From: a virus
Length of the DNA: 25,546 bases
Strand: one strand, 5' to 3'
Virus record (IMG/VR): IMGVR_UViG_3300003177_000014
Coordinates: 1-25,546 of that record
How positions within the stretch are numbered: the first letter of the stretch is position 1; every line of letters begins with the position of its first letter. This document shows positions 4,480-21,332 of this stretch, one piece after another. The position numbers were made by a program, and so were the translations under genes. The notes under the pieces are model-generated. The model did no database searches and was not told the DNA's origin. It was given only the letters and a program-made list of their open reading frames with translations.

Positions 4480-4483
4480 TTGC

Positions 4484-4514
4484 CCGGTTTTGGTCGTGAC
4501 CGTACCTTGATTGC
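4484..4514 (+). promoter_or_regulatory. Late-region intergenic motif GGTCGTGAC, copy 1
   Basis: GGTCGTGAC lies at 4492-4500 in the 35-base gap between the spike gene and the LysM/gp25-like gene. The same nine bases occur in two other gaps (8420-8428 and 14290-14298). Here the core is a full inverted repeat, GGTC-GT-GACC. I infer a phage-specific late promoter element or activator site; no sigma-70 boxes are evident. Downstream, the next ATG follows after only 14 bases with no Shine-Dalgarno sequence. Confidence 0.45.
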
Positions 4515-6293
4515 ATGGCGACCGGAAATCAGAAGGCCGAAGCAAGGCCAATATCTTTCATACTTCACAATCTAGCAACAGGGGCAAGCCCCGTTGAGTT
4601 GAAGCTTGTGATCCGCCCGGAAGATTTATCAGTCCCGTATCAGTCACGCATTACCGCCAACCAGACCATGGGTGGTGTTTGGTTGGACGATTTTGGAAGG
4701 GGGGTACCTTCGGTAAGTCTTTCTGGCCATACTGGCTGGGGTGCCGGTGCCCGGAAAAATGGCTTTGAGGCATACAAAGCCCTGCATAATCTGATTTTTA
4801 AGGAGTGGCACATACAGCGTGCCAGTGCTTTACGGCACGGTCTGGACGCTGACGATGTTAAGCTGATCTACGCGGATCATCTTGACGATATTACTTGGGT
4901 GATGGCTCCCAATACCTTTCTGTTGAAACGGAATAAATCGCGACCACTTCTTTCACAATATCAGATTTCGCTACTTTGGTTGTCCGATGATGTTTCAGAT
5001 ACAGTTGAGGCATTGGATGAATTAAATCGCAGTCGCTCAACAAACACAAATGAAATGGCGGCAGCTTCTTTACAGGTGTCGCTTGTGAAAATAAACGAAG
5101 CTAGGGCATCCGGAATGACCGCCAGTCTTGGTTCAGCCCAGCGAGAATATGACAATCTACTCACTCTGACTAGCACCACACTGGAATCGGTCAACACTTC
5201 CCTTGCCACTGGTTTGAGCGTCATGGAGGCGACGAACAGAAGCGTCTTTGATGTTGCGACCAGACTTACAAAAGCGGTTTTAAACATAACGAATACGTTA
5301 ATTTCAACCATAGCCTTTCCTCAAATTATGATGGCGCGTTTTTTGCGGTTAGCATCGTCACTAAGAAATGCCTATTGCCTATTGAGCAACGTGCTTTCTC
5401 AGCAGCAGACAATTCCGAATTACGCTGGCCTTTATGGCTCTTCAAACTGTTCATCAACCGCTGGTGGCAGCCCTGTATCAATATATGATACAGCAAACCC
5501 ATTTTCTGCGATCCAACCGAATATTCAGCCGGCTTCAATGATTTCCGGCGCGGCCAGCAATGCACTTTCTGGTGCCGGCGGAATTGACCCTGTCCTTAAT
5601 CCTATAACGACAGATGATGCGTCCCGGCTGATGGGTACAGTAAATTCAGGTGTAACGCCGGCATCTAACCCTTCGACGGGGACTTCTGTGAGCGGTGCGA
5701 CAACCAAGATTCCCAACATTCGTATTGTTGAGGTTCAAGCTTGGGATAATCTTAGGAGCATAGCCTTACGCGAGCTTGGTCATTCTGGGCGGTGGACTGA
5801 GCTTGTACTTCTCAATAAGTTAAAGTCTCCGTATATCGCACTACAAGCTTCGTCTGGCGTTTTGGCTTTCGGAGATAACATCAAGGTACCATCTCCGGGT
5901 TCGATGATTTCAGCGGATTCTGACCCGGCGTATGTATATGGAACCGATGCGTTGGTGACGGGCGGAAAGTTGGTTATTGCCAACGGCGACCTTGCTCCAG
6001 TTTCTGGCGAGAAGAACCTGCTGCAAGCGATCAAGAATCACGTTACGGTAAGCAAGAAGTCGCTTGGTTTTCATCCAAGATATGGCTGCTTGGTTCACGA
6101 TGTCCTTGGCGTAGTAAGCGGGCCAACAGCCGGGCAGCTTTCAGCATTTTACGTTCAATCTTCAATCCTTGAGGATTTGAGAATAGACAAGGTTACAAGC
6201 AGCACCGCTGAAATAGCAGGAGATTCAATCAAGGTGACAGCAGAGATAGTACCTGTTGCCGGTCGTCAGATTGACTTTAAGGTGGTCATATAA
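4515..6293 (+). CDS. Fused baseplate protein: gp53-like/LysM region plus C-terminal gp25-like domain
   Basis: A 592-residue protein. An in-frame TGA at 4497 forces the start to 4515 or later, and 4515 has no visible ribosome-binding site. The N-terminal region (about 1-170) carries IRPEDLSVPYQSR, recalling baseplate connector proteins. Residues about 200-390 are helical, then Ser/Gly/Ala-rich and linker-like. Residues about 400-460 look like a LysM fold (AWDNLRSIALRELG, then WTELVLLNKL, FGDNIKVPSPG). Residues about 475-592 match the gp25/gpW wedge pattern: ANGDLAPVSGEKNLLQAI, LGFHPRYGCLVHDVLG, and EDLRIDKV where gp25 has its conserved E-P-R. In T4, gp53 (LysM-like) and gp25 (sheath initiator) are separate proteins. 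The fusion is inferred from sequence; the order before the J-like gene supports it. Confidence 0.7.
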   Translation: MATGNQKAEARPISFILHNLATGASPVELKLVIRPEDLSVPYQSRITANQTMGGVWLDDFGRGVPSVSLSGHTGWGAGARKNGFEAYKALHNLIFKEWHIQRASALRHGLDADDVKLIYADHLDDITWVMAPNTFLLKRNKSRPLLSQYQISLLWLSDDVSDTVEALDELNRSRSTNTNEMAAASLQVSLVKINEARASGMTASLGSAQREYDNLLTLTSTTLESVNTSLATGLSVMEATNRSVFDVATRLTKAVLNITNTLISTIAFPQIMMARFLRLASSLRNAYCLLSNVLSQQQTIPNYAGLYGSSNCSSTAGGSPVSIYDTANPFSAIQPNIQPASMISGAASNALSGAGGIDPVLNPITTDDASRLMGTVNSGVTPASNPSTGTSVSGATTKIPNIRIVEVQAWDNLRSIALRELGHSGRWTELVLLNKLKSPYIALQASSGVLAFGDNIKVPSPGSMISADSDPAYVYGTDALVTGGKLVIANGDLAPVSGEKNLLQAIKNHVTVSKKSLGFHPRYGCLVHDVLGVVSGPTAGQLSAFYVQSSILEDLRIDKVTSSTAEIAGDSIKVTAEIVPVAGRQIDFKVVI

Positions 6294-7372
6294 TGGCATT
6301 TCAAATTAAGAATTTCACATCGATTGTGGCGGGCATGATCAACCATGCAAAGTCAACCCAGACGGTGCTTACTGACTTCAATATTGGTTCCATAACAAGG
6401 ACTCTGATGGAGTCACCTGCAGTGGAAATGGAAGAGATTTACCAGCGGTTGTTTTACGGTTTACTCGAAGCAATCCCTGTCGCCACATACAATTCATTTG
6501 GCTTTGATACATTGCCGGCAACCAGTGGCTATGGAATGGTTACCGTTTCAGTCGCACCAGCCCTTGGCTCTGATATGCCAGTACCTGCCGGAACGATTTT
6601 CACAACGGCGGCTGGTGTGGAATATGCAACCGATGCCGATGCTGTATTTCTGGCTGGTGATGGATCCGCCACGTTCTTGGTTCGCGCAGTTGTACCCGGC
6701 CTTGCAGGGAATGCTGCTGCAGGAGCGATTGTTTCAAGTGGTATTTTCTCCGACCCAACATTTTCGATTGTTTCTGGTGTAATTTCAAGCGGAAAGGATA
6801 TTGAGTCCGATAGTGAGAGAGCTGTACGGTTCGCAGATTTTATCTCTTCACTTTCCCAAGGTACTGTTACTGCGGTTCAGTATTCTGCAAAATCAGCAGT
6901 GTATGGTTCTGAGTATATCACCCGGTCAACAATCAAAGAGGGCGGAGGCCACGTTTACGTTTACGTCTATTCATCATCGGGGATTCCGTCTGCCGGTTTA
7001 CTTGCGTCAGCACAGTCAGCAGTAGATGGGTTTACCGATCCATCATCTGGGTCTATAACCTTCGGTAGTCGTGCGGCTGGTGTTCGGGTTGACGTTCTCC
7101 CTATGTCGGAGGTTGTTGTGGACGGTTCATTGCAGATTGCTGTTCTTTCTGGGTATTCATTGGATGCAACCATGATAAACAGCCTAAGTACCGTTTACAG
7201 CCAATTCATATCATCTTTGGACTCTGGTGCGATATTGAATATTTCAAGCTTGATTGATTCGCTACTTTCGGTTGCTGGCGTTAAGACGGCTATCATGCCA
7301 AACACATCAAACGTAATAAGTGCTGATGGAGAGGTTCTTGTGCCCGGAACATTGACGGTAAGTGCGCTGTGA
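6293..7372 (+). CDS. Baseplate wedge protein J-like (gp6 family)
   Basis: A 359-residue protein starting at an ATG that overlaps the previous stop by one base, with AAGGTGG upstream. The N-terminus (TDFNIGSITRTLMESPAVEMEEIYQRL) is a strong Baseplate_J signature: the G-S-x-x-R-x-L-x-E core followed by a helix. The middle has IPAGTIFTTAAG-like and VPGLAGNAAAGAI segments, then SDSERAVRFADFISSLSQGT, all characteristic of the family. The C-terminal beta-rich part (GVRVDVLPMSEVVVDGSLQIAVLSGY) is also typical. These proteins form the inner wedge ring and clamp the gp25-like sheath initiator, which is encoded just upstream as a fused domain. Confidence 0.9.
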   Translation: MAFQIKNFTSIVAGMINHAKSTQTVLTDFNIGSITRTLMESPAVEMEEIYQRLFYGLLEAIPVATYNSFGFDTLPATSGYGMVTVSVAPALGSDMPVPAGTIFTTAAGVEYATDADAVFLAGDGSATFLVRAVVPGLAGNAAAGAIVSSGIFSDPTFSIVSGVISSGKDIESDSERAVRFADFISSLSQGTVTAVQYSAKSAVYGSEYITRSTIKEGGGHVYVYVYSSSGIPSAGLLASAQSAVDGFTDPSSGSITFGSRAAGVRVDVLPMSEVVVDGSLQIAVLSGYSLDATMINSLSTVYSQFISSLDSGAILNISSLIDSLLSVAGVKTAIMPNTSNVISADGEVLVPGTLTVSAL

Positions 7373-8400
7373 GTGCTGTTACTGATCGCCTGATAAACAA
7401 TGTTCCATCGTCTATGCTGGCTCATGATCCAGAGCGTATTTTATCGCTTCGTGTGAGAAACCAGCAGGGATTGGTATGGGTCATTTCTGGCTACAATCTT
7501 ACCATTCACAGTAACGTAGTTGGCTGGGATGGATCGATTGACTGGAATGGTTTCTATGCGTTTGGCGCGACCACAACCGAATATGATCTGGCCACACTAA
7601 CAATTGGCCAGCTGTCTGATGCTCTCGTAGCCGACGGGCACTTGATTGCCTATTCAGACCCTTCTCTGCTTACCCTTTCTGCCATGGCGTTGATTGATGG
7701 TTCCGGGGATCAAGATTCATCCAACGGTGATCATTTGTATATCTACACCTCGCCATTCTGGACGCTGATGTCTGCATACGGTGAGGCTTTGACGATAGCA
7801 AATGCAGATGTTGATTTCGGACTTACTCAGATGGATTTACGGCAGTGCATTGGAGAATGGGCTGATGTTTGGGGTGTCCTGTTCGGTGTACCGCGACTGG
7901 TCAATGAGTTGGATGCTGATTATATCACACGAATTGTGGCGGAATCATTCCGGATTAGAGTGAGCCCACTCGCCATCGAAGATGCTGTTTTTGCTGCCAC
8001 TGGAGTCCATGTCGTAATAGACGAGCCGTGGAAACGCATCTTTGAACTTGATGGTTCATCCTTATCCGGTGCTTCTGCGATGCAGGACGGTAACTATTTT
8101 ACCTATCACGTTATTCAGCCAATATTCCCAGACGGAACCACAATAGCAGAGGTGGACTTGGGTGTGCCGGCAGTGCAGAGAAATAAAGCAGTGGGTGTTG
8201 ATGTTTTCGCTCCGGTTGTTTCTTTCAATCCAAGATTTAACATTTTGACTGCTGGTATGCAGGTTGATAGTGCGCGAACAGATAAGCGTTCGTCGTGGAC
8301 TTATTGGGAAAAATCAATGGTTCTAAGCAGGGATCTACTATCCGATCCGGGCACCGCACAATTAAATGATAGTATGATTATGTCTACGGTTGCGTTGTAG
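7369..8400 (+). CDS. Tail protein I-like baseplate wedge component
   Basis: A 343-residue protein. The start is a GTG at 7369 overlapping the previous TGA by four bases; no strong Shine-Dalgarno is seen, so translational coupling is likely. The central part carries the tail-protein-I type pattern: LRQCIGEWADVWGVLFGVPR, then DADYITRIVAESFRIRVSPLAIEDAVFAATGV and a VVIDEPW stretch. P2 gpI and relatives (T4 gp7 counterpart) bind the J protein and attach fibres. The order J then I then fibre genes is the standard P2-like arrangement, which raises confidence. The extra N-terminal 120 residues are not recognised. Confidence 0.75.
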   Translation: MSAVTDRLINNVPSSMLAHDPERILSLRVRNQQGLVWVISGYNLTIHSNVVGWDGSIDWNGFYAFGATTTEYDLATLTIGQLSDALVADGHLIAYSDPSLLTLSAMALIDGSGDQDSSNGDHLYIYTSPFWTLMSAYGEALTIANADVDFGLTQMDLRQCIGEWADVWGVLFGVPRLVNELDADYITRIVAESFRIRVSPLAIEDAVFAATGVHVVIDEPWKRIFELDGSSLSGASAMQDGNYFTYHVIQPIFPDGTTIAEVDLGVPAVQRNKAVGVDVFAPVVSFNPRFNILTAGMQVDSARTDKRSSWTYWEKSMVLSRDLLSDPGTAQLNDSMIMSTVAL

Positions 8401-8410
8401 GTAGACATTG

Positions 8411-8440
8411 TCGGCGTTTGGTCGTGACTAGACAATCCAG
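8411..8440 (+). promoter_or_regulatory. Late-region intergenic motif GGTCGTGAC, copy 2
   Basis: GGTCGTGAC is at 8420-8428 in the 64-base gap between the I-like gene and the first fibre gene. It continues as TAGACAAT, similar to copy 3 (TGGATAGT), so copies 2 and 3 share GGTCGTGACT-n-GA-n-A-n-T. The fibre gene ATG lies 36 bases after the core, almost the same spacing as copy 3 (34 bases). It is inferred to be a promoter or activator site for the fibre genes. Confidence 0.45.
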
Positions 8441-8464
8441 TTCTGAATTCATTTTGGGGGATAA

Positions 8465-9556
8465 ATGGCAACTATAGCAGAATCTGCCACATGGGATGTT
8501 GGCGTTTATCAGATTTCCGACAATGACAAGGTTCTTGGCGGTACTTCTGGTGTTGTTAATATGCAGGCATTATCACTTGTTAACCGTACTGCTTATCTGA
8601 AGGGACAAGTGGATTCGGTGGCTATAATCGCTGCAGATAGTGTAGCTAAGGCCGATTCTGTCATAGCCCAAATCGCATCCATTGAGGCGAGCGTGGGTGC
8701 AGTTGCCGCATCTGCAGCTGCGGCTCAACAAAGTAGTCTTGATGCCTCCGCAGCTAAAGCCCTTGCCCAGCAGTCCGAATCTGTTGCGACAGTAAATTCC
8801 ACGTATGCGGCTGATCAAGCTGCGATTGCCGCAGCCTCTGCTATATCACTGACGGCGGCCAAGGACGCGGCACTATCTTCCAGCCTATCGGCATCTCAAT
8901 CTGCGACCAGCGCGGCGGCTTCCGCAGCTTCTGCCTTAAACCACTATTCTTTCCGTGGCGCATGGAGCATTACTGGAGTTTATGCAAGGAACGATGCTGT
9001 TACTTCTGTCGTTACAGACTATGGTGTTTTCGGCTTTGTTTCACTGCAAGATGGGAATGTAAACAACCAACCGCCAATTGATGGTAGTTCAAATGTATGG
9101 TGGGGCGTTTATGCTGCTGGTGGTGCAGATGGTTTTGGTGATATGCAGGCCAGCAAGTACGACCCGAATGGCTTTGCTGTTGATGCTTTTGCGAGGTCTA
9201 ACCATACCGGCGTAGTTCCTGCGTCAGAGGTGAGTAATATCCCTTCTGGGGGCGTTTCATCTACCGTACTGCAGGATGCGATCAATCAGCTTGATACAGG
9301 GATTGCCGGCAAGATGGATAGCGGCATGGTGATTGACGGTGGTTCACAACCCGTGAAGATTAAGCGTTCAGCCTCTCCAAACATCATTCCGCTAATTACA
9401 GATATTTCACTTGGTGAACTGATGATCAATACGTTTGACGGGAAGTTATATTTGAAGAAGAGTAATAATGGGACAGAGACTGTCGTCGAGGTTGGCGGCG
9501 GAGGCGTAGCGCAGGCTAACGCTCTGTCGGTTGCTTTAACTATGGTCTTATACTAG
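8465..9556 (+). CDS. Tail fibre protein with Ala-rich shaft
   Basis: A 363-residue protein with GGGGGAT a few bases before the ATG. The N-terminal 45 residues (TWDVGVYQISDNDKVLGGTSG, cut here) resemble the attachment segment of many phage fibres. Residues about 55-160 are an Ala/Ser-rich heptad-like stretch expected to form a trimeric coiled shaft. Residues about 163-220 (FRGAWSITGVYARNDAV, FVSLQDGNVNNQPP, VWWGVYAAG) look like a small carbohydrate-binding module of the CBM5/12 kind, with W, G-x-Y and P spacing. The C-terminus (GELMINTFDGKLYLKK) has the repeated fibre motif in which T-x-D-G-K-L-Y-L recurs. It probably contacts the host surface. The fibre assignment is firm; the receptor is unknown. 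Confidence 0.8.
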   Translation: MATIAESATWDVGVYQISDNDKVLGGTSGVVNMQALSLVNRTAYLKGQVDSVAIIAADSVAKADSVIAQIASIEASVGAVAASAAAAQQSSLDASAAKALAQQSESVATVNSTYAADQAAIAAASAISLTAAKDAALSSSLSASQSATSAAASAASALNHYSFRGAWSITGVYARNDAVTSVVTDYGVFGFVSLQDGNVNNQPPIDGSSNVWWGVYAAGGADGFGDMQASKYDPNGFAVDAFARSNHTGVVPASEVSNIPSGGVSSTVLQDAINQLDTGIAGKMDSGMVIDGGSQPVKIKRSASPNIIPLITDISLGELMINTFDGKLYLKKSNNGTETVVEVGGGGVAQANALSVALTMVLY

Positions 9557-9567
9557 GAGCTTTATAA

Positions 9568-10533
9568 ATGACAATTTCTACCGCAAGCCTAGAGACGGCC
9601 TTACAGCAAAAACTAGACGCTCTTTCTGTCGCTAATGCGAGTGACGAATTTGTGTTGCTGATTAAGGCTCTTGAGGCATTTAAGGCCGGCACAAGTTCTT
9701 CTGTTGCTGATATTTCTGCATTGCCGCCAGCGAACCTGAATACCGGTCGGCTTATTCATGTTCTCAACCCAAGTTCTCGCATATATTACTCGACAGGCGT
9801 TACATGGCAAAGCTTCGCAACGTCAGAGGCTCCGGTCTACATTAAGGGTGTTTTGGCATCGGAGGCTGTAGACCTAATCGATTACAATTTAATCACAGAT
9901 GCTGTGACCGTTTCTCTGGATTACGGATTGATTACTGTCGCCCACACCGCGCAGACGAATTTGGGCGCGTTATCAATTCTGAGCCCCGGAATCAATGGCG
10001 ATATTTACATCGACCCGGTGAATTATACGTTTACGCTTTATGATGGAGTTACTCGCGGTGGTGTAAAAACAGCGCGTGCCGACTTAAATAATATTGATTT
10101 TTACAACATGAGCGCATCGAAACGTGGATTTGTGCATCTTCTGAAGGGTACCAATACAACCATTCCACTTGGAACTCCAACGATAATTCCATTCAGTTCT
10201 GCCAAGCTTATTGATCCCCGTCTGGGATCTTTTGTGAACGGGACTTTTGTCACGAATTACAGAGGGTGGTTCAAGGTTGATATTCAGGGGATTTGTGACG
10301 GCCTGCTTTATGTCGGCTTTGGGGCAGACACTACCGGCCTAGACAGTTCGACCGTGATTGTAAGTCGAGCAACTGATTTTGCTGGGAGTGCGCTTGTGTA
10401 TTTGGAGGTTGGCGAAGCCCTCAATGTCTATGGCATGAGTGTTGGCGTGGTAAACCGCACGATATTTGGTTACGATTACAATCACCCTGACTTAACTCGC
10501 TTGTCCATTGAATATCTTGGCTTAAATAACTAA
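9568..10533 (+). CDS. Tail fibre-like protein
   Basis: A 321-residue protein beginning eleven bases after the previous fibre gene, with AGGAG nine bases before the ATG. The first 50 residues are helical (ALQQKLDALSVANASDEFVLL is part of this). The middle is beta-rich, and TFTLYDGVTRGG near residue 155 is the same kind of motif seen in the next gene (VVVHDGVTVGG), which is common in fibre and tropism-determinant N-terminal domains. The C-terminal 130 residues are beta-rich without a recognised fold. It is probably a second fibre subunit or a receptor-binding tip, inferred from its position and composition. Confidence 0.62.
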   Translation: MTISTASLETALQQKLDALSVANASDEFVLLIKALEAFKAGTSSSVADISALPPANLNTGRLIHVLNPSSRIYYSTGVTWQSFATSEAPVYIKGVLASEAVDLIDYNLITDAVTVSLDYGLITVAHTAQTNLGALSILSPGINGDIYIDPVNYTFTLYDGVTRGGVKTARADLNNIDFYNMSASKRGFVHLLKGTNTTIPLGTPTIIPFSSAKLIDPRLGSFVNGTFVTNYRGWFKVDIQGICDGLLYVGFGADTTGLDSSTVIVSRATDFAGSALVYLEVGEALNVYGMSVGVVNRTIFGYDYNHPDLTRLSIEYLGLNN

Positions 10534-10550
10534 AAAAGAAGGAGAAACTT

Positions 10551-11303
10551 ATGTCTACTCAAGCAAAATTACGGAGAGGGACTACGCTGGAACATAGCAC
10601 TTTTACGGGTGCTCTTGCTGAAATTACCGTGGACACAGACAAGAAGACTGTCGTTGTTCACGACGGGGTGACGGTTGGCGGTGCTGGCCTGTTGCGTTCA
10701 GATCAGGCCAGAGGCATGACACTGACGGAATATTTTTTAGTGAGCGGAACGTACACAATTGCTAACAAGCCGGGTCTTAAACGTATCCGGGTGCATGCGT
10801 ATGGCGGAGGTGCCGGTGGAACAAATGGTGCGCCGTATGGTGGTGGCGGTGGCGGCCAAGGTGCTCATGGCTTCGTAGAGCTTGACGTATCCCAGCTTGC
10901 CACAAATACAGCAGTTACAATTGGTGCTGGTGGGGCAGCTTCAGCTGTGGGTGGGACAACCACGTTCGGCACGTTTATTTCCGCAGGTGGTGGGGTTGTC
11001 GGTGCTGCTTCTGGTGCCTATTATGGTGCTCCGGGAGGAAAGGGTGGCACAGCAACGGGAACCAACGTGATTGATCTTGGTTCTGACGCAGGCTCTCCTT
11101 GCCAGTATGCTTACCAAGCAGCCAACCGTGCCTGTGGTGGTTCTGGTGGTGGTTCTGGTGGTGGTGTCGGTGTAAATGGAGGAACAGGTTCTGCAGGTAC
11201 TGGTGTGTCTGGTGGTGGCGGTGCTGGTTCTGGTCAAGCTGGCGTTGGTGGAGCGGGTGCGCATGGCCATGTTATGATCGAAGAAATTTATGGTGAGGTG
11301 TAA
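10551..11303 (+). CDS. Adhesin with Mtd-N-like start and glycine-rich tip domain
   Basis: A 250-residue protein with a strong AAGGAG site before the ATG. Residues 1-50 (KLRRGTTLEHSTFTGALAEI, TDKKTVVVHDGVTVGG) match the short N-terminal domain of the major tropism determinant family and of many fibre tips. Residues about 84-245 are exceptionally rich in Gly with runs of GGG and GAGG separated by short beta strands (TNTAVTIGAGGAAS). This resembles the glycine-rich adhesin tips in which polyglycine-II helices are stacked, as in phage S16 gp38. It has one Cys pair (SPCQ and RACGG). It is probably the receptor-binding tip. Confidence 0.72.
   Translation: MSTQAKLRRGTTLEHSTFTGALAEITVDTDKKTVVVHDGVTVGGAGLLRSDQARGMTLTEYFLVSGTYTIANKPGLKRIRVHAYGGGAGGTNGAPYGGGGGGQGAHGFVELDVSQLATNTAVTIGAGGAASAVGGTTTFGTFISAGGGVVGAASGAYYGAPGGKGGTATGTNVIDLGSDAGSPCQYAYQAANRACGGSGGGSGGGVGVNGGTGSAGTGVSGGGGAGSGQAGVGGAGAHGHVMIEEIYGEV
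11136..11174 (+). repeat. Short GGTGGTTCT tandem repeat in the glycine-rich adhesin
   Basis: Imperfect copies of GGTGGTTCTGGT run head to tail here and encode Gly-Gly-Ser-Gly. Such a repeat can gain or lose units by slippage and so change the length of the glycine-rich tip domain. Confidence 0.6.
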
Positions 11304-11306
11304 ATC

Positions 11307-11591
11307 ATGGTTATTGCGAAAGTAGTAAATGGTGCCATTGTTAATGTTGAAATGTGGCCGACGATGCCGAAGGGCAATGAGTATCATGATGTCACCGGCA
11401 AGCCCGGTGGGATCGGCTGGTTGCTTGATGCTAAGTCTGGTGTTTTTTATGAGCCCGCCCCATTTCCCTCTTGGAAGTTGAACAAGACTAATTTAACTTG
11501 GTCTGCTCCAAAACCAAAACCAAAGACTGGAATTTCCGAGTGGGATGAAACATCCCTTTCTTGGACAACCATTAAAGCACCCATTGCTTAA
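11307..11591 (+). CDS. Small tail-fibre accessory protein (unknown function)
   Basis: A 94-residue protein with GAGGTG before the ATG, directly after the adhesin gene. The sequence is Trp-rich near its end (PFPSWKLNKTNLTWSAP, then SEWDETSLSWTTIKAP). The pattern of W-x-L/W-x-A-P repeats is reminiscent of the short repeats in phage fibre accessory proteins that read W-x-x-W-x-x-P. I do not recognise a named family. The position suggests a chaperone or a virion decoration protein of the fibre, which is inference only. Confidence 0.55.
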   Translation: MVIAKVVNGAIVNVEMWPTMPKGNEYHDVTGKPGGIGWLLDAKSGVFYEPAPFPSWKLNKTNLTWSAPKPKPKTGISEWDETSLSWTTIKAPIA

Positions 11592-11605
11592 TTCTACAAA
11601 AAATA

Positions 11606-11950
11606 ATGGAAGCATTAAGTGGAAGTCGAGACAGATCGCAATTCATTCAATATTGTGGAAGGGGAGTGGTTGTGCTTTCTACTGTAGCCGCTAAGGCAAT
11701 AGGTTCTACACTTGGAAGTTCTCTTGCGGTTGTTTTCAACAGCAGGGACTCCAACCCACTATTGATGGTGAAGCGTTTTATTATTGGCGCGATACTTGGG
11801 TTTATATTTGCCCCTATCGTGATTGATCATCTCGGATGGAAGCATGAGATGGATTATTGGATAGCATCAGCTACGCTATGTGGAGTGCTTGGATATTTAT
11901 CACTGCAAATTGTGTTTAGTGATAAGATGCTGGCTCGGATATTTAAGTGA
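11606..11950 (+). CDS. Small membrane protein, holin candidate 1
   Basis: A 114-residue protein. The ATG at 11606 has little ribosome-binding sequence. A GTG at 11672 has AAGGGGA six bases upstream and would give 92 residues beginning VLSTVAAK, so the true start is uncertain. Two hydrophobic segments are clear: RFIIGAILGFIFAPIVI and the later IASATLCGVLGYLSLQIVF. The C-terminus ends in a basic LARIFK. Two membrane spans, small size and a position two genes before the endolysin suggest a class II holin-like protein. This cannot be proved from sequence. Confidence 0.5.
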   Translation: MEALSGSRDRSQFIQYCGRGVVVLSTVAAKAIGSTLGSSLAVVFNSRDSNPLLMVKRFIIGAILGFIFAPIVIDHLGWKHEMDYWIASATLCGVLGYLSLQIVFSDKMLARIFK

Positions 11951-12249
11951 GTCCTATATTTGAGTTTAACCTGTTTGTGCTTGTGGTTGATACCTTAATT
12001 GGAGCGTCAGCCATTATTTTCCTCATGCATTGGTCTTCTCACCATCACATGTTATTTGTGCGCGTGGGGTTGTGGTTGGGTGCCATTGGACTTTTTGGCC
12101 AAGCGTATAGGAACGCGCAGTACATTCTATACTCCGAGTCACCAACGGATAATTCGTTAGTTTATTGGGTGTTAAAAGATGCTGCGTTGTGGGTAATAAT
12201 AGTTTGTGCGATTTTGTATTCAATAAAGAAAAGTAGGGGGGTAAAATGA
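11947..12249 (+). CDS. Small membrane protein, holin candidate 2
   Basis: A 100-residue protein starting at GTG 11947, overlapping the previous stop by four bases. Three hydrophobic stretches are visible: FNLFVLVVDTLIGASAIIFL, then LFVRVGLWLGAIGLFG, and WVLKDAALWVIIVCAILYSI near the C-terminus, which ends with KKSRGVK. The layout of three membrane spans with a basic tail fits a class I holin. It overlaps the endolysin start by four bases, so the two are probably translated together. It could instead be an antiholin to the preceding protein. Confidence 0.55.
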   Translation: MSPIFEFNLFVLVVDTLIGASAIIFLMHWSSHHHMLFVRVGLWLGAIGLFGQAYRNAQYILYSESPTDNSLVYWVLKDAALWVIIVCAILYSIKKSRGVK

Positions 12250-12794
12250 AGATAGCTGTATGTGCTGGCCACTATGCCGGCGCGAAAGGTGCAGACAACC
12301 ACAAGTTTGGTTTGAACGAACACGATGAAGCGAAGCTGGTGGTTTCATTTCTGGTGACTATATTGGTAAATTTAGGTCATTCTGTGTCTGTTTTTTCCGG
12401 CGGATTAACCAAGAAGGTGAATAATATAAACAATGGCCTTTTTGATCTTGCCTTTGATATTCATTTCAATTCTGGCGGCGGGCATGGGTGCGAGGTTATG
12501 CATGTTCCCCACTCTCCCAAGCGGGCGCATCAAGCGGCAATCATGTCTTCTGTGATTGCGACTGCGCTTGGTTGCAGTAATCGTGGTTCGAAAGAAGGTT
12601 GGTGGCAGGGTGGAAAGCATCCGGGCACTTTACCTGATTTCTTTCTTACGGAAACGAATTGTCCTGCATTTATTCCAGAGTTGTTTTTCATCGATAATGA
12701 TGAGGCTGTTGAAAAATGGTTTATTGGAAAGCGACATAAAGAGCTTGCGGAAGCGATTGCGGAAGCGATTGGTGCGACATTTAGTGATGTTTGA
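12246..12794 (+). CDS. Endolysin, N-acetylmuramoyl-L-alanine amidase (Amidase_3)
   Basis: A 182-residue protein with GGGGGG four bases before the ATG. It shows the Amidase_3 zinc-site pattern: CAGH with His9, Glu25 in LNEHDEA, DIHFNS with His73, and the likely catalytic Glu145 in IPELFFIDN. This enzyme cuts the bond between muramic acid and L-alanine in peptidoglycan. There is no signal peptide, so release should depend on a holin, consistent with the two membrane proteins encoded just upstream. The domain fills the whole protein and no binding module is present. Confidence 0.88.
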   Translation: MKIAVCAGHYAGAKGADNHKFGLNEHDEAKLVVSFLVTILVNLGHSVSVFSGGLTKKVNNINNGLFDLAFDIHFNSGGGHGCEVMHVPHSPKRAHQAAIMSSVIATALGCSNRGSKEGWWQGGKHPGTLPDFFLTETNCPAFIPELFFIDNDEAVEKWFIGKRHKELAEAIAEAIGATFSDV

Positions 12795-12796
12795 TT

Positions 12797-13000
12797 ATGA
12801 GTGACTTCAAGGCTCGTCTAGTTGACGAATACAGTGAACTCAATAATCGAGTGAATCTGCTGTCGAGGTTCATGCTTTCGGAAGGGTATAAAAACCTAAA
12901 TGTTCTGGATCAGGAAGACCTGCTAGAGCAGCACAACCACATGAATGCTTACTTGTCTGTTTTGGTGCGGCGAGTAAGCCGAATTTGTGAATGTATATAA
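12797..13000 (+). CDS. Small phage protein, possibly crAss001_48-related
   Basis: A 67-residue protein from ATG 12797. A TTG at 12791 is a possible alternative that overlaps the endolysin stop. It is predicted to be helical, with a pattern (FKARLVDEYSELNNRVNLLS then LLEQHNHMNAYLSVLVRRV) resembling the small phage family sometimes called crAss001_48-related. That resemblance is from memory. No enzymatic residues are evident. The function is unknown; it sits inside the lysis block but need not act in lysis. Confidence 0.55.
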   Translation: MSDFKARLVDEYSELNNRVNLLSRFMLSEGYKNLNVLDQEDLLEQHNHMNAYLSVLVRRVSRICECI

Positions 13001-13012
13001 TGGAGGTTTGAT

Positions 13013-13198
13013 ATGTTTGTTTTTGCAGTAATATCAGTGATAATTGGATTGATAGTCATTGGATATGCCTTTTTTCGTCATAATGGAACGGAAGATTATG
13101 CATTCTATTCATTTTTCATTATAGGGGTTGCGTTGCTGGCTGTTGGTTCTGTATCTGCAATAATTGGTTGGCTCATAAAGCTGACAAGTGGAGGTTAA
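13013..13198 (+). CDS. Small two-span membrane protein (unknown)
   Basis: A 61-residue protein with GGAGG seven bases before the ATG. It is almost entirely hydrophobic: span one is FVFAVISVIIGLIVIGYAFF, then a short polar loop (RHNGTEDYA), then span two FFIIGVALLAVGSVSAIIGW. Placement among lysis genes suggests a holin, antiholin or regulatory membrane peptide. No family is recognised. Confidence 0.6.
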   Translation: MFVFAVISVIIGLIVIGYAFFRHNGTEDYAFYSFFIIGVALLAVGSVSAIIGWLIKLTSGG

Positions 13199-13200
13199 AA

Positions 13201-13530
13201 ATGAGTAATGCTATAGCTTTTTGGTTGAATTATTTTGGTGGTGCAGATATAGCATATGTAGCATGTTTCTCGATTGCATGCACTCAGGTTGTGAAGGTGA
13301 TCTGCAAAGCGAACAAGATCGACAACCAACTACTGTTTAGGATGGTGAGTTATGCCACTGGTGTATTGTCCGGGCTTGAATTCCTTGGTGGAATTCATGG
13401 TGCAATGGTTGGATTTGCTGTTGCTGGTGCTGCATCGGCTGCCTATTTCGGGGTTAGGAGTTGGCTTGGTGGATCAGATGTCCCTTGGCGCAGGGCTATT
13501 GCTCACTACATGAGTGGAGAGTTGAAGTGA
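13201..13530 (+). CDS. Membrane protein, holin-like
   Basis: A 109-residue protein. I chose ATG 13201 over the upstream TTG 13168 because GGAGG lies directly before it (GGAGGTTAAAAATG). Hydrophobic stretches are IAYVACFSIACTQVVKVIC and a Gly/Ala-rich pair around GAMVGFAVAGAASAAYFGV. The C-terminus is polar (PWRRAIAHYMSGELK). The size, spans and position just before the spanin-like gene are compatible with a holin. It adds to an unusually large set of small membrane proteins here. Confidence 0.6.
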   Translation: MSNAIAFWLNYFGGADIAYVACFSIACTQVVKVICKANKIDNQLLFRMVSYATGVLSGLEFLGGIHGAMVGFAVAGAASAAYFGVRSWLGGSDVPWRRAIAHYMSGELK

Positions 13531-13847
13531 TTTGGGTCAAGAATCACCTTGCTTTAATTGGTGGGATTCTAGCTGCGCTTGCTTTTGCGGTCATGGGCAT
13601 GCAGAAGGCATCTGCAAAACAGGCGGCCAGAGCATCCGATTTAACGGCCTCGAACGCTCCTGATGCTGCATTGGCCAATGGTTCCCGTGAACAGGCTGTC
13701 GCGGCGGTACAGAAGGCCAACGAAGCCCAGCAAACTGCTGATCGCCACCATGAGGCGGCCAAGATTGCCGTCAAATCTGCTCTGGATACATCTGGAGCAT
13801 CTGGGGTTGGTGATGATGATCTATTGGCGTACTTAAACAGACAATGA
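13527..13847 (+). CDS. Inner-membrane spanin-like protein (Rz-like)
   Basis: A 106-residue protein from GTG 13527, which overlaps the previous stop by four bases. An upstream in-frame ATG at 13461 would overlap the previous gene by 70 bases and is less likely. One N-terminal membrane span (LALIGGILAALAFAVMG) is followed by a long Ala/Gln-rich helix suited to a periplasmic coiled coil (EQAVAAVQKANEAQQTADRH). This layout matches the i-spanin partner of a two-part spanin. The next gene, overlapping by four bases, encodes a lipoprotein, the other partner expected. The sequence itself is not strongly conserved, so the call rests on layout. Confidence 0.55.
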   Translation: MIWVKNHLALIGGILAALAFAVMGMQKASAKQAARASDLTASNAPDAALANGSREQAVAAVQKANEAQQTADRHHEAAKIAVKSALDTSGASGVGDDDLLAYLNRQ

Positions 13848-14275
13848 GATACATAGTTTTGGTGCTTTTGCTGACTGGTTGCGCTGCTGATCATACGGCA
13901 CCAAGGCTGACAGAGGTAGATTCCCGTCCTTTTTTATCCGATGCTATTTCTATCGAAAACTATGCGCCTTTGGATATTGCGCCGTTATCGAAAGCAACAA
14001 GCATTAAGGATGCGGCAGTGAAGTTCGATGCAGAGCGTCGGGCTTATCGTAAGTCAACCCTTTCACTTGACCAAGCATTGAGCGCACAAACGCTGGTATC
14101 ACAGCACCTAAAGGGCGCATTGAAGGCCACCGAGATTGAGCAGCGGGCAACCGAGAGAATGCTGATCCGTACAGACGAAGCGTTTAAGCAGGAACAGAAA
14201 ACGGCGAAAGTGAGTGATTTCTTTCACCGTGTTATAGAGGCTGCATTGGCAATTGCTGTTGGTGTTGGCTTGTAG
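13844..14275 (+). CDS. Spanin-type lipoprotein with C-terminal hydrophobic segment
   Basis: A 143-residue protein, with ATG overlapping the previous stop by four bases (ATGA). It begins MRYIVLVLLLTGC, a lipoprotein signal with the lipobox L-T-G-C and Cys13 as the predicted lipid-attached residue. The middle is helical and polar (SLDQALSAQTLVSQHLKGAL). The last 14 residues, VIEAALAIAVGVGL, are hydrophobic. Outer-membrane lipoprotein plus C-terminal membrane segment is the layout of a one-part spanin (u-spanin, as in phage T1 gp11). With the i-spanin-like gene before it, a two-part system is equally possible. The hydrophobic end is short for a full membrane span. Confidence 0.5.
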   Translation: MRYIVLVLLLTGCAADHTAPRLTEVDSRPFLSDAISIENYAPLDIAPLSKATSIKDAAVKFDAERRAYRKSTLSLDQALSAQTLVSQHLKGALKATEIEQRATERMLIRTDEAFKQEQKTAKVSDFFHRVIEAALAIAVGVGL

Positions 14276-14283
14276 TCTGGCCT

Positions 14284-14316
14284 CCCGTCGGTCGTGACTG
14301 GATAGTTTGATAAACT
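14284..14316 (+). promoter_or_regulatory. Late-region intergenic motif GGTCGTGAC, copy 3
   Basis: GGTCGTGAC is at 14290-14298 in the 57-base gap between the lysis block and the second tail module. It is followed by TGGATAGT and then TTTGATAAACT, which could hold a -10-like sequence (GATAAA or TAAACT). The next ATG lies 34 bases after the core. This copy would serve the 14333-17996 genes. The role as a promoter is inferred from recurrence in gaps. Confidence 0.45.
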
Positions 14317-14332
14317 GAGGATAAGGTGGCAT

Positions 14333-14809
14333 ATGGCGATATTGGTTGATTTGGGTCGGGTAGCAATGGCAGAAGCCATTAAGGTGCTGCCTCTTTTTAT
14401 GGCTTGGGGAAACGGTGATGTTGGCTGGGATACGGTTCCGCAGGTAGAAAACATTTCTGATATTTCATTGGTGGCCGAAGTTGGTCGCCGGTCTGCTTCT
14501 TTTGTTGAATTTTGTACCCCGGATCCAGCCGGAAGTATAGTCGTACACTCTGGAATATATGCCCCTTCTGTAACGCCAACAAACAGTCTTCACATTGTCT
14601 TTAATTTCGATTTCTCTGATGGATTGAATGAGACAATAAGGGAGGTTGGTGTTTTTATTGGGACAACAATCAAGCCGGGGACACCGGGTAATTATTTTTT
14701 ACCAGCTGATATATTGGATGCTGGTTCACTGATGTTGAGCGAGCACGTACAGGCTTTTGCTCGCAGTAATTCTGTTCGGCAGACCTTTGAGTTTGTCGTG
14801 AATTTTTAG
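14333..14809 (+). CDS. Tail/baseplate-associated protein (unknown fold)
   Basis: A 158-residue protein with AAGGTGG just before the ATG. It starts MAILVDLGRVAMAEAIKVLP and includes FMAWGNGDVGWDTVPQVENI, IREVGVFIGT and a C-terminus of RQTFEFVVNF. I remember similar small proteins in other phage tail clusters next to DUF4815 genes, with R-E-V/I-G-V-F and R-Q-x-F-E-F as conserved blocks. Their function is not known to me. It lies ahead of the DUF4815 gene with a ten-base gap and is probably part of the same structural unit. Confidence 0.62.
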   Translation: MAILVDLGRVAMAEAIKVLPLFMAWGNGDVGWDTVPQVENISDISLVAEVGRRSASFVEFCTPDPAGSIVVHSGIYAPSVTPTNSLHIVFNFDFSDGLNETIREVGVFIGTTIKPGTPGNYFLPADILDAGSLMLSEHVQAFARSNSVRQTFEFVVNF

Positions 14810-14818
14810 GGGGCTGTT

Positions 14819-16783
14819 GTGCAGACTGGATACTATAATCGATTCAATCCGGATGATGAGTTTGAAAAGCATCTATTTATTGCCGGCAAAGCATTGCAGA
14901 GCGCAGAACTTAATGAGGTACAGGACTCCCTGTCGTTTCGATTAAAGTCTGTCGGTGATGCTATTTTCAAGAATGGTGATGTGATCCGCGATGCGCGAAT
15001 TTCTGTAAATGTGACGACCGGGGACACCTTCTGCGAATCAGGTGCTATTTATCTGAATGGTGCTGTACGTGGAGTTCCTACAGGCTCACTAACCGTCCCT
15101 GTTGTCGGTTCTGTTACGCTTGGTGTTTACATTACCTCAACAGAGATTAATAGCGCAGCAGACTCAACGCTGCTTGATCCCGCAAGTATTTCCAGAAACT
15201 ATCAGGAGGCCGGTGCCGCACGACTGAAGATGGCCACCGCTTGGGGATATGATGGCGATGGCCAGACTGGAGACTTCTACCCTGTATACACCATTCTTGA
15301 TGGTGTTCAGCTATCTAAGAGCGCACCACCAACGTATGATTTATTTTCCCAAGCTTTAGCCTCTTATGATCGAGATTCTGCCGGCGGCACATATATTGTT
15401 GATGGGATGGGTGTGAGTCGGTTGGCTGACCTCCCAGATGGGCGGCAGGTTTATTCTGTAGCTGAGGGTAAGGCGCGAGTGAATGGCTATGGAATTGATC
15501 AGCCGACAGGTAAGCGTTTAATCTTTGATGCGCAGCCAAACCTTCGTTTAATTACGACAGAGCCACACCTGAGCACAAATGCTGGTGCCCAGCGGGTTGA
15601 TCTATCACATACTCCAATTAACAATATTACTGCAGTACAGATTACAGCTGCAGGATTTGCATCATTGACTCATGGTGGATTCATTGGTGCGCTTGATTTG
15701 CTACCCGACACATCTGTATTGCAGATTACGGCGGTCACTCAGGGAGCGACCACATACACCGTTGGAGTTGATTTCCAGCTGACTGCTGATCAGGTGGATT
15801 GGTCGCTTGGTGGTGCAGAGCCAGCAACAGGCTCGACATACGATGTCGCCTATGAGCACATTACAACCGTCGTTCCAACTTCTGTCGATGATACTGGCAT
15901 GACGGTAACGGGTGCGGTGATTGGAACGCTTGTTTTGGTTTCATATAATTTCAAGCTATCGCGCATTGACAGACTCGCGGCGACGGCTACTGGTGAATAT
16001 CTTTGGGTTAAGGGTGTCGCTTCGATTGCCAATCCGCAGGCACCGTTGATTCCGGGAGATGTTCTTTCACTCGCAACCATTTATCAGGCTTGGGACGCGA
16101 CAACCACTGTCACGAACGATGGTGTTCGTGTTGTCCCGATGACTGATCTGAATAAGATAAACGGGCGAATTGATTACATGGTTGCATTGATCGCCCAGCA
16201 GCGTCTGGAAGGTAGCGCGAATCTACGCGACGCTTCACAGAAAAAGGGATTATTCACCGACCCATTTATCGATGATACGCTGCGTGATGCAGGCGAGGTT
16301 CAGACTGCTGCCATTGTCGATGGTGCATTGATGCTCCCAATTACAGTCACGAGCGTGAGCACACCTTCTCTTGATCCGGTCACACCCAAAGCAAATGCCT
16401 TCACCTTGATTGAATCAGTATCGCAGACTTCGCGAACTGGATCCATGAATGTTAATCCATATATGGCTTTCGATGTTCTCCCGGCACGGGTCGAGTTATC
16501 TCCTGCTGTGGATCGTTGGACAGTTAATGTGACTTCGTGGACAAGTGCTGTTATCCGTGGTTGGTGGGGATGGTCTTATTGGGGCTGGCGTGGCCGCAAT
16601 TGGAGGCGTACCCGTTGGAATCGTTGGGGTTGGAATAACACAACTACAGAGCAGGCTGGTCAAAGTGAAACGCTCATCCCTTACATTCGCCAGCGCAACG
16701 TGTCCTTTGTGATCGATGGTTTTGGTGGTGGGGAAGTTCTTGCGTCCGTAACATTTGATGGCATCACAGTAACAGCGGTTTAA
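14819..16783 (+). CDS. DUF4815 tail protein, probably split from its C-terminal part
   Basis: A 654-residue protein from GTG 14819 with AGGGGGC upstream. The N-terminal block (GYYNRF, HLFIAGKALQSAELNEVQDS, GDAIFKNGDVIRDARI) is the DUF4815 signature, found in large phage tail or baseplate proteins. Residues about 574-606 are extremely Trp-rich (see findings). The C-terminus, FVIDGFGGGEVLASVTFDGI, resembles a small beta motif found near the middle of longer DUF4815 proteins. The stop is followed by AAGGAG and the ATG of the next gene after ten bases, whose sequence would continue such a longer protein. It is probably a virion surface or fibre component. Confidence 0.75.
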   Translation: MQTGYYNRFNPDDEFEKHLFIAGKALQSAELNEVQDSLSFRLKSVGDAIFKNGDVIRDARISVNVTTGDTFCESGAIYLNGAVRGVPTGSLTVPVVGSVTLGVYITSTEINSAADSTLLDPASISRNYQEAGAARLKMATAWGYDGDGQTGDFYPVYTILDGVQLSKSAPPTYDLFSQALASYDRDSAGGTYIVDGMGVSRLADLPDGRQVYSVAEGKARVNGYGIDQPTGKRLIFDAQPNLRLITTEPHLSTNAGAQRVDLSHTPINNITAVQITAAGFASLTHGGFIGALDLLPDTSVLQITAVTQGATTYTVGVDFQLTADQVDWSLGGAEPATGSTYDVAYEHITTVVPTSVDDTGMTVTGAVIGTLVLVSYNFKLSRIDRLAATATGEYLWVKGVASIANPQAPLIPGDVLSLATIYQAWDATTTVTNDGVRVVPMTDLNKINGRIDYMVALIAQQRLEGSANLRDASQKKGLFTDPFIDDTLRDAGEVQTAAIVDGALMLPITVTSVSTPSLDPVTPKANAFTLIESVSQTSRTGSMNVNPYMAFDVLPARVELSPAVDRWTVNVTSWTSAVIRGWWGWSYWGWRGRNWRRTRWNRWGWNNTTTEQAGQSETLIPYIRQRNVSFVIDGFGGGEVLASVTFDGITVTAV

Positions 16784-16793
16784 GGAGTAAGAA

Positions 16794-17996
16794 ATGGCTT
16801 TAGTAGCGGATGCAAACGGTAGGGTTACTGGCAGTTTCGCCATCCCGGCAAATGTGCCGGCTGGATCGAAACTTGTGGAATTTATTGGTTCTGGCGGCTC
16901 TAAGGGGCAGGCGCAATATGTTGGGCAGGGTAAGCGGGTGAGCACTGTGTTTCGCCGCGTTTATACTCGTTCATGGTGGCGTTATGACCCACTGGCGCAG
17001 ACATTTACCCTTGATTCCGCGCAGCAGATTTCAGCGGTTGATCTATGGTTTACGGCCAAAGGGACGAGCACAATCATCGTTCAGATTCGAGAAACAACGA
17101 ATGGATTTCCGTCGCAGAACATTCTTGCTGAGGGGCGGTTGGATCCGGCAGTTGATATTACCTCATTAACATCACATACACAGGTGAACTTCGCACAGCC
17201 AATTTCACTGCTGCCAAACGTGGAATATGCCATTGTGATTATGTGTAATGACGCTGTGACAGCTTTGTCTGTTGCGCAGCTTGGCAAGTTCGACGCAAAT
17301 GTTCAGCAGTGGGTTACGGCTCAGGCTTATCAAGTTGGCGTTCTATTATCTTCATCCAATGCTTCAACGTGGACGGCGCATCAAGATCGGGATCTTACCT
17401 TCCGGCTTCATCGCGCTATGTACTCTGAGACTGTTGCGACCATCGATCTTGGTATCGTTCCTGTTGTGGCTGCAACCGATCTCATGTTGCTTACAACGGA
17501 TGACGTTCCTGATTCAAACTCTCACGTTGAATATGATCTAACACTTCCGGATACATCAATTATTACAGTGACGGATGGTCAGCCTGTACAGCTTGATGCA
17601 CCAATAACGGGTGATGTTGGCATCTCTGCGCGAGTAACCGGCAACGTAAATGGTTCTCCAGTCCTATATCCGGGTTTTCAGCTTATCTCTTCGGTTACGG
17701 AACCTACCGGGACATATATATCACGTTCAATTAAGGCAGGTACCGGGGTTACTATTAAGGTTATTTTTGATGCGCTGCTTCCCGGCGGATCAACTGTGAC
17801 TACTGAATATCGGCTTGATGGTGGCGTATGGGCTTCAGTACCGTTTGTTTCCTCTTCACCTGTAGATAACGGCTTCCTTGAAATGGTAAGTGAGGCAGCT
17901 GGGTTGACCGGTGTAAATGCACAGATTCGCCTAACGCTTAATGGCGGTGCTACTGGACGACCGATCATTCAGAATCTTCGTTTTATGACAGTGTAA
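16794..17996 (+). CDS. Tail protein resembling the C-terminal half of long DUF4815 proteins
   Basis: A 400-residue protein with AAGGAG eight bases before the ATG. It opens with DANGRVTGSFAIPANVPAGS, then VEFIGSGGSKGQA and YDPLAQTFTLD near residue 65, a set of beta motifs that in my memory follows the DUF4815 region in single longer polypeptides. Residues about 70-200 look like a galactose-binding-type beta sandwich (VDLWFTAKGTSTIIVQIRE, LLPNVEYAIVI). The C-terminal part is also beta-rich. It is probably assembled with the DUF4815 protein. It is the last late gene, ending nine bases before the shared terminator stem begins. Confidence 0.65.
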   Translation: MALVADANGRVTGSFAIPANVPAGSKLVEFIGSGGSKGQAQYVGQGKRVSTVFRRVYTRSWWRYDPLAQTFTLDSAQQISAVDLWFTAKGTSTIIVQIRETTNGFPSQNILAEGRLDPAVDITSLTSHTQVNFAQPISLLPNVEYAIVIMCNDAVTALSVAQLGKFDANVQQWVTAQAYQVGVLLSSSNASTWTAHQDRDLTFRLHRAMYSETVATIDLGIVPVVAATDLMLLTTDDVPDSNSHVEYDLTLPDTSIITVTDGQPVQLDAPITGDVGISARVTGNVNGSPVLYPGFQLISSVTEPTGTYISRSIKAGTGVTIKVIFDALLPGGSTVTTEYRLDGGVWASVPFVSSSPVDNGFLEMVSEAAGLTGVNAQIRLTLNGGATGRPIIQNLRFMTV

Positions 17997-18002
17997 CAGA
18001 AA

Positions 18003-18028
18003 GGGGCTCGTTAAGAGCCCCTTCTTTT
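18003..18028. terminator. Convergent rho-independent terminator
   Basis: GGGGCTC at 18003-18009 pairs with GAGCCCC at 18015-18021 around the five-base loop GTTAA, followed on the + strand by TTCTTTTTTT. On the - strand the same stem is followed by TTTCTGTT, a weaker tract. It sits between the last late gene and the last early gene, so it can stop transcription arriving from both sides. Confidence 0.9.
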
Positions 18029-18029: not shown

Positions 18030-18272
18030 TTATTGTTCTTTTTTTTCGGTGAATTCTATAAGCTGCTTTCTAGTCGAACACGCCCGGATGGATCGACGCA
18101 TGTCGCGAAGTCGAGCAATTTCATCGAGCGTTATTTTATCGAACTTTCGTTTTGCATCGCGAAGCCCCTTGAATATTGTCCTCCCAAGTTCTTCATTACC
18201 AGAATAATGTCTCTGTGGTTTTTCATCTGGCGTTATGCCACTTTCGAGGTCTACATGGTAATAAATGGTCAT
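18030..18272 (-). CDS. Small unknown early protein
   Basis: An 80-residue protein. I chose the ATG at 18272 because CGGGGAGCG lies just upstream and it overlaps the previous stop by one base (TAATG). Longer frames lack such a site. The sequence is basic in its second half (GLRDAKRKFDKITLDEIARL, MRRSIRACSTRKQLIEF). No motif is recognised. It is the last gene of the leftward operon. Confidence 0.62.
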   Translation of the reverse strand: MTIYYHVDLESGITPDEKPQRHYSGNEELGRTIFKGLRDAKRKFDKITLDEIARLRDMRRSIRACSTRKQLIEFTEKKEQ

Positions 18273-18598
18273 TATTCGCTCCCCGTTTTTTCCTCTTCTT
18301 TCAGTTCTGAGAATTGCATCAAATCTTCCGCTGTCCACCCAGCTTGGATGGCTGCTTTATAGGAAGCACTGAAAAGCATCGCAGACGAATTTCTGTGAAA
18401 CTCTTCGTCATACGCTGGTGAGACAATGGCTCCGCAAACGATTGATGTGAGTGCTGATAGAACAAGGTCAACTCGCTCGCCTTCAATTGCAGGCTCAACT
18501 TTTGCGATAATTCTCTTAATGCTGTCAATATATTCTGCTTCATTGAAGCTGTTTACCGGCTGCTGGTCAGCTGTCTTTGCGTTATCTTCATTGGTCAT
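18272..18598 (-). CDS. Small unknown early protein
   Basis: A 108-residue protein with GGGAG seven bases before the ATG. It is acidic and predicted to be mostly helical (NEAEYIDSIKRIIAKVEPAI, GERVDLVLSALTSIVCGAIV, AAIQAGWTAEDLMQFSEL). The hydrophobic middle helix is not long enough for a clear membrane span. It overlaps the Ref-like gene by 11 bases. Function not recognised. Confidence 0.68.
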   Translation of the reverse strand: MTNEDNAKTADQQPVNSFNEAEYIDSIKRIIAKVEPAIEGERVDLVLSALTSIVCGAIVSPAYDEEFHRNSSAMLFSASYKAAIQAGWTAEDLMQFSELKEEEKTGSE

Positions 18599-18887
18599 CT
18601 AATAACTCCCGTGTGTCATTTATTAAGTCTTTTTCTGTAAATCCATACATGGCCTCGAACATTCCCTTTTTACCAAGCATGTGTACTCCAGTATCCCCCA
18701 AGTGATGCTCATAACATAGGGGGATGAGATCGCGTTCATCGCTCCGCAATCCCATCCCTGTATGGGATCTTGGGTGGTGTAGCTGTGCTGGTGTTCCGGG
18801 AAATCCGATACGCCGGCACAAAGAACAACCGAGTTCCGCAACGCGGTTCCGATATTCTTTCTGCGCTTTAGTTGCAGCGTGCTTCAT
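18588..18887 (-). CDS. Ref-like HNH nuclease (recombination enhancement family)
   Basis: A 99-residue protein. It carries LGCSLCRRIGFPGTPAQLHH, then GMGLRSDERDLIPLCYEHHL, with paired Cys21/Cys24, His37/His38, Cys58 and His61/His62. This is the arrangement of the HNH-type domain in P1 Ref and its shorter phage relatives, which bind zinc and cut DNA, in Ref's case with RecA filaments. The extended N-terminal region of P1 Ref is absent here. It belongs to the same operon as RecT, exonuclease and SSB, which fits a role in recombination. Confidence 0.78.
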   Translation of the reverse strand: MKHAATKAQKEYRNRVAELGCSLCRRIGFPGTPAQLHHPRSHTGMGLRSDERDLIPLCYEHHLGDTGVHMLGKKGMFEAMYGFTEKDLINDTRELLDDQ

Positions 18888-19278
18888 TTGTTATATCCAT
18901 AGCGAGGCTCTTTATGGCTTCGGCACATTCATCTGCTGTTTTTCTCCGCTTTGCAGGTGCTGTATGAGTGATCTGGCACATTTCATCCCCGTCTGGGCAT
19001 GGTACCTCCATGTTATAACAGACGCTCTCTGTGCAGATTTCAGCGGCTCTGCTGAGGATGTTGAATTGCATAGCTGTGAGTGCTGAGTGAGCATTTTGCT
19101 TAATGATCATCTGCGCACGATTAAGTAGGTAATTGCTTATTTCTGATGTTTCTCCAATATCGGTCGCATCATCAAGCAATTTTACAAGGCAACCTTGGAG
19201 GGTATCCACCTGTGTTTCCAGTGCTGCTATTCTTGCATTGTATGGGTCTGTAACGATTTCACGTACTACAGCATTCAT
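18868..19278 (-). CDS. Unknown early protein
   Basis: A 136-residue protein with AGGAGGT eight bases before the ATG. The N-terminal region is helical (PYNARIAALETQVDTLQGCL) and the whole is predicted helical with five Cys residues spread through the second half (ICTESVCYNMEVPCPDGDEM). The spacing does not match a zinc finger I know. It overlaps the Ref-like start by 20 bases. A sigma-70-like promoter lies just upstream at about 19307-19342. No function is recognised. Confidence 0.65.
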   Translation of the reverse strand: MNAVVREIVTDPYNARIAALETQVDTLQGCLVKLLDDATDIGETSEISNYLLNRAQMIIKQNAHSALTAMQFNILSRAAEICTESVCYNMEVPCPDGDEMCQITHTAPAKRRKTADECAEAIKSLAMDITNEARCN

Positions 19279-19313
19279 CTGGTTTTACCTCCTGTTGCAT
19301 GTTATCGACAGCA

Positions 19314-19342: not shown

Positions 19343-19359
19343 GTGTAATCTTGTGGGGC

Positions 19360-19587: not shown

Positions 19588-19599
19588 ATTTTCTCCTTT

Positions 19600-19752: not shown

Positions 19753-19783
19753 AAATCTTTACAAATAAGGTCTAAGGTGTGTT

Positions 19784-20453: not shown

Positions 20454-20472
20454 CGCGTTCCCCTTGAATGTA

Positions 20473-21331: not shown

Positions 21332-21332
21332 G

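Follow-up and report, generated by a model that had tools for sequence, protein, structure and literature searches.

A predicted late promoter, GTCGTGAY-N2-NANNNT, in temperate myophages and a cysteine-rich phage protein as its candidate activator

The nine-base word GGTCGTGAC, repeated in the late region of a phage genome fragment, is the more conspicuous half of a longer promoter sequence, GTCGTGAY-N2-NANNNT. Its identity as a promoter is strongly supported, in the absence of transcript data. Two parts make up the element, a box spanning roughly −22 to −15 and, at a fixed spacing from it, a −10-like hexamer; a −35 sequence is lacking. A phage protein, herein designated B, quite likely activates this late promoter, and the mRNA would be leaderless at some of its sites; neither transcription-start, expression nor binding data are available for this reading.

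The window analysed is the whole virus record IMGVR_UViG_3300003177_000014, 25,546 bases in length. No terminase, portal or capsid gene was seen within these 25,546 bases, indicating that the window is a fragment of a phage genome. The megablast comparison of the window with phages found nothing, and IMG/VR scans gave no close relatives of its phrog_877 and LysM baseplate proteins. GGTCGTGAC is present exactly three times, at 4492-4500, 8420-8428 and 14290-14298, always on the + strand, against an expectation of 0.09 from dinucleotide shuffles, none of 100 shuffles reaching three. Each copy lies in one of the three longest gaps between late genes of the + strand, 4480-4514 (35 nt), 8401-8464 (64 nt) and 14276-14332 (57 nt), and the distance to the ATG is 36 nt for copy 2, 34 nt for copy 3 and only 14 nt for copy 1. 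The first-pass annotation had placed the motif at these positions on the same strand, within 35-64-base gaps of the late genes, and had counted 36 and 34 bases before the ATG for copies 2 and 3, all in agreement with the present analysis. Using a weight matrix built solely from other genomes, with the window excluded, the three sites scored 18.6, 18.6 and 16.0 bits, against 9.2 for the next best site of the window and a maximum of 14.7 over 20 shuffled sequences.

The genes around the three copies encode a tape-measure-like protein, baseplate proteins, fibre and lysis proteins and distal virion proteins. Copy 1, with its core GTCGTGAC at 4493-4500, is followed by the −10-like hexamer TACCTT (4503..4508), at the spacing fixed in 109 other sites, and by late unit 1 (4515..8400), including the genes for a baseplate/LysM protein (4515-6293), a baseplate J-like protein (6293-7372) and a baseplate wedge-like protein (7369-8400). 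For copy 2 (core 8421-8428), the hexamer is GACAAT (8431..8436), and the inferred start site predicts a leader some 20 nt long, in which a G-rich Shine-Dalgarno sequence precedes the ATG at 8465. This ATG opens late unit 2 (8465..14275), with genes for the tail fibre, for fibre-associated proteins and for lysis. For copy 3 (core 14291-14298), the hexamer GATAGT (14301..14306) and a start site likewise inferred predict a short leader carrying GAGGATAAGG before the ATG at 14333, from which late unit 3 (14333..17996) extends with the genes for a phrog_1394 virion protein and for phrog_877 and phrog_5986 proteins. All these features are on the + strand, as is a terminator-like hairpin with a T tail, detected by consensus scan at the end of the late region (18001..18023). 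This hairpin divides the late genes from an early-type block on the minus strand (18030-24300), facing the late genes and containing SSB, RecE-like, RecT-like and HNH-like genes.

The neighbour of the gene downstream of copy 3, located at 14819-16783, has relatives in Aeromonas phage ST4, Pseudomonas phages Dolphis and Jeremy, Yersinia phage fHe-Yen8-01, Enterobacter phage phiT5282EW and Morganella phage Mecenats66. The sequence TCGTGAC/T was found at comparable places in the late-gene gaps of these relatives, and the element itself in those of Dolphis, ST4, fHe-Yen8-01 and phiT5282EW. Alignment of the sites gave GTCGTGAY, two free bases and a hexamer whose second base is A and whose sixth is T. 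When 118 GTCGTGAY copies from eight genomes were collected without imposing any −10 box, 93 of them had A at +11 and 90 had T at +15, these being the two key bases of a −10 element. The same promoter is located before late genes of ST4, Dolphis, Jeremy, fHe-Yen8-01 and phiT5282EW, of Pseudomonas phage Touem01 and Bordetella phage PHB04, and of dozens of uncultured phages, with about 7-14 copies dispersed over each genome of about 90 kb, mostly preceding a gene start on the strand of that gene. The reversed pattern, examined as a control, gave no match in any of the B-encoding relatives scanned, and one chance match each in the window and in phage HJ05. Orthologues of the genes after copies 1 and 3 also carry the element, protein identity between the window phage and these relatives being mostly 33-50%.

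Based on this comparison, the remaining proposals of the first-pass annotation can be judged. The bases noted as common to copies 2 and 3 (T-n-GA-n-A-n-T) are indeed shared and correspond to the −10-like hexamers GACAAT and GATAGT. The inverted repeat GTC-GT-GAC stands only as a description of the window word, which is partly palindromic; it is not conserved, the last base being T in 40 of the 118 copies elsewhere. The scan of relatives suggested there showed that the element recurs ahead of late genes in numerous related phages, accompanied by its fixed −10-like box. This recurrence and the tight link to protein B support the proposal of a late promoter element, recognised by a phage factor and splitting the late region into units. 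That earlier reading recognised neither the −10-like hexamer nor the leaderless geometry at copy 1, and did not note that the palindrome is unconserved.

At copy 1, the order of elements is GGTCGTGAC-cg-TACCTT-gattgc-ATG. With a −10 hexamer ending at −7, the A of such an ATG falls at or next to +1, and the transcription start of promoter 1 is thus predicted at 4515, the A of the ATG itself. An ATG is located 6-7 nt past the hexamer in 46 of 110 sites (about 40%), 43 of these 46 opening frames of at least 30 codons, and in 29 of 96 sites of a separate set of B loci. For copies 2 and 3, the leaders are short and of the ordinary kind, with Shine-Dalgarno sequences. An ATG 6-7 nt past the hexamer is where orthologous portal, protease, adaptor and baseplate proteins begin. 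Their N-termini are conserved across phages (MTDxALEVAHxP for the portal, MITMVLP for the adaptor and ...QKAEARPISF for the baseplate protein), and this ATG is therefore very likely the true start. For copy 1, and for some 40% of sites in the relatives, leaderless mRNAs are inferred from the position of the ATG, without RNA-end data. The annotated starts of one baseplate protein (Dolphis gp25, ST4_071; L021:12685, L020:15258) miss the conserved N-terminus, and its true start looks leaderless; the annotated start of B in Dolphis (gp82, 66941) also misses the conserved N-terminus.

B emerged from a comparison of gene families among the initial phages, as the one conserved non-structural family left with the right distribution. 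Two other candidates were rejected: an AraC-like protein was dropped for its patchy distribution, and a conserved protein of about 270 aa, encoded on the reverse strand next to the adaptor gene, appears from its sequence and position to be a structural protein. B is a phage protein of about 180 residues whose conserved cysteines form two clusters, C-x11-C-x18-C-x2-C and C-x2-C-x12-C-x2-C, and its gene is located at the start of an early operon in several phages. Only 9 of 50,697 phage records encode B, all belonging to this clade. The structure of B was predicted with confidence (mean pLDDT 89.9), and its fold had no match to solved structures among those ranked by Foldseek. Sequence and fold searches gave no match to a curated family, and no recognisable DNA-binding or sigma domain was identified. 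In the open-access literature, to which the search was restricted, neither the promoter element nor B is reported.

The occurrence of the promoter follows that of B. Of 38 B-encoding IMG/VR records, not all of them independent, 37 carry the promoter, with 410 matches in total and none for the reversed control. Four phages lacking B had 0-1 matches. In a prospective test, phages chosen by the presence of B gave 13 sites in PHB04, 14 in Touem01 and 14 in a Rhodovastum phage-plasmid; HJ05, Alfacinha1 and AcaML1, chosen by a common late gene and lacking B, gave none. At 102 B loci, 123 motifs were detected, compared with 1 for the reversed pattern and a mean of 4.5 for permuted words. The one exception among the 38 records (G039) belongs to a lineage, represented by G002, with a divergent B. 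Boxes resembling GTCGGGAC occur in this lineage with unchanged spacing, and the leaderless geometry is found among them (G002 positions 29224, 54322, 54328, 67201 and 80961); the lineage appears to be a natural specificity variant. In Mecenats66, B is present, yet just two sites fit the pattern. Co-occurrence within one clade partly reflects shared descent and is not proof of binding.

B is also encoded outside these phages. In the 13-kb plasmid EC71, B is the sole feature in common with the phages, and two sites were found against about 0.1 expected from base composition. NZ_CP085626.1 (L054) and about 40 similar enterobacterial plasmids of 11-13 kb are non-mobilizable and encode a B-like protein of about 320 aa; in EC71, the one such plasmid scanned, both GTCGTGAY promoters precede unknown genes. 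NZ_CP018944.1 (L055), a 27 kb E. coli plasmid carrying CTX-M-14, has GTCGTGAY promoters, one of them shortly upstream of B, and has in common with ST4/Dolphis-type phages a tape-measure/transglycosylase protein, part of a primase, a small membrane protein and B. It is apparently a decayed phage-plasmid or a satellite. At five of the chromosomal loci with orphan B genes (L172, L173, L174, L176 and L177, near position 10000), a GTCGTGAC...A...T site is located 57-200 nt upstream of B, suggesting self-regulation of B.

The promoter could be real and yet be read by another phage factor, for instance a sigma-like or HTH protein, with B merely accompanying it. The lack of a recognised domain in B leaves room for such a reader, and these phages do encode other putative DNA-binding proteins, such as the AraC-like protein. 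This protein was, however, not found in fHe-Yen8-01 and phiT5282EW, both of which carry the promoter; EC71 has promoters although only B is shared with the phages; and sites adjoin the orphan B genes. Another reader is thus considered unlikely. The hexamer retains its A and T as second and sixth bases, and where Y is T the extended −10 position often reads TG, as would be the case if the sites were plain host sigma-70 promoters of the extended −10 type with an incidentally conserved spacer. This is very improbable, as the box is identical in phages of Gamma-, Beta- and Alphaproteobacteria hosts while the hexamer is weak (CACAAT, GACAAT, TACCTT), a scan of the window detected no −35/−10 promoter at the sites, and the box tracks B. 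The location on one strand, in gaps, and the partly palindromic word might point instead to a signal other than a promoter, for packaging, recombination or RNA processing, for instance. This can hardly be maintained, given that the spacing is fixed relative to the −10-like box and in many cases also to the ATG, that the 7-14 copies are dispersed and mostly precede gene starts on their own strand, and that the palindrome is not retained.

For the preferred reading, activation by B, the following mechanism can be proposed. B is absent from the window, a 25.5-kb fragment itself without head, packaging and most early genes, and its presence in the window phage is assumed. B would be made early, from a gene outside the fragment, and would most likely bind the box at −22 to −15, recruiting or re-directing host RNA polymerase and holding it in place of a −35 contact, while the host sigma factor would open the −10 hexamer. 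P1 Lpa promoters are understood to operate in this manner (P1 annotation; PMC10695390). The three late units, for baseplate, for fibre and lysis, and for distal virion proteins, would then be switched on, and an ATG at the predicted start site, as in copy 1 and in about 40% of the sites of relatives, would give leaderless mRNA. Directly observed are the element itself, its spacing and conservation, its location ahead of late genes and its co-occurrence with B. The role of B as activator is an inference, as are the start sites, the binding of B and leaderless translation.

In a wider reading, for which we see the chances as evenly balanced, this would be a widespread late-transcription system of temperate myophages, in which a new activator family, B, reads its box directly against the −10 element. 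Many structural-gene mRNAs would start at their own ATG, head and baseplate proteins being made from leaderless mRNAs, and small plasmids and chromosomal islands would have taken up B and the promoter, perhaps to sense or exploit the late phase of the phages. The small plasmids with B, one of them carrying blaCTX-M-14, suggest elements listening to, or descended from, these phages. For a large and mostly uncharacterised group of phages, the analysis provides a late-promoter code that can be read and one candidate activator, neither of which was found described. The promoter geometry predicts transcription starts to the base and corrects gene starts missed by annotation because of the absence of a Shine-Dalgarno sequence, offering a clean case for the study of leaderless translation of abundant structural proteins.

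Late transcription in other phages depends on factors with which B can be compared. P2 Ogr and P4 Delta are small cysteine-rich phage activators of late operons, and the candidate activator is also small and Cys-rich. No member of the B alignment, however, matched Pfam Ogr_Delta at E 0.1, and the Ogr site TGT-N12-ACA (near −55) is absent upstream of the window sites. In T4, gp55 for late and MotA/AsiA for middle transcription re-direct host polymerase to −10 promoters without a good −35; the box described here differs in position and sequence, B shows no sigma-like domain, and the T4-type late element TATAAATA is absent. In phage P1, host SspA takes part in the activation of late promoters by Lpa. 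P1, a temperate myophage of about 90 kb, has about 11 dispersed late promoters without −35, with a conserved short box near −22, and an early phage-encoded activator, Lpa (gp10) (P1 annotation; PMC10695390). The likeness is of architecture only, a −10 hexamer without −35 and an activator box at about −22, and identity with the P1 late promoters was rejected, box, spacing and activator all being different. The P1 box is AAGTGACTT-N4-TANNNT, a 9-bp inverted repeat with a 4-nt spacer, in contrast to GTCGTGAY-N2-NANNNT; the P1-type pattern has 11 matches in P1 and none in the window, while three sites before late genes of the window fit GTCGTGAY-N2-NANNNT. When P1 Lpa was compared by phmmer with every ORF of the related phages, a set without the window fragment, P1 itself was the only hit. 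The Cys-rich B is unrelated to Lpa, and the leaderless geometry is not among the listed P1 late promoters. On present evidence, the P1 Lpa system and the putative GTCGTGAY/B system appear analogous, not homologous.
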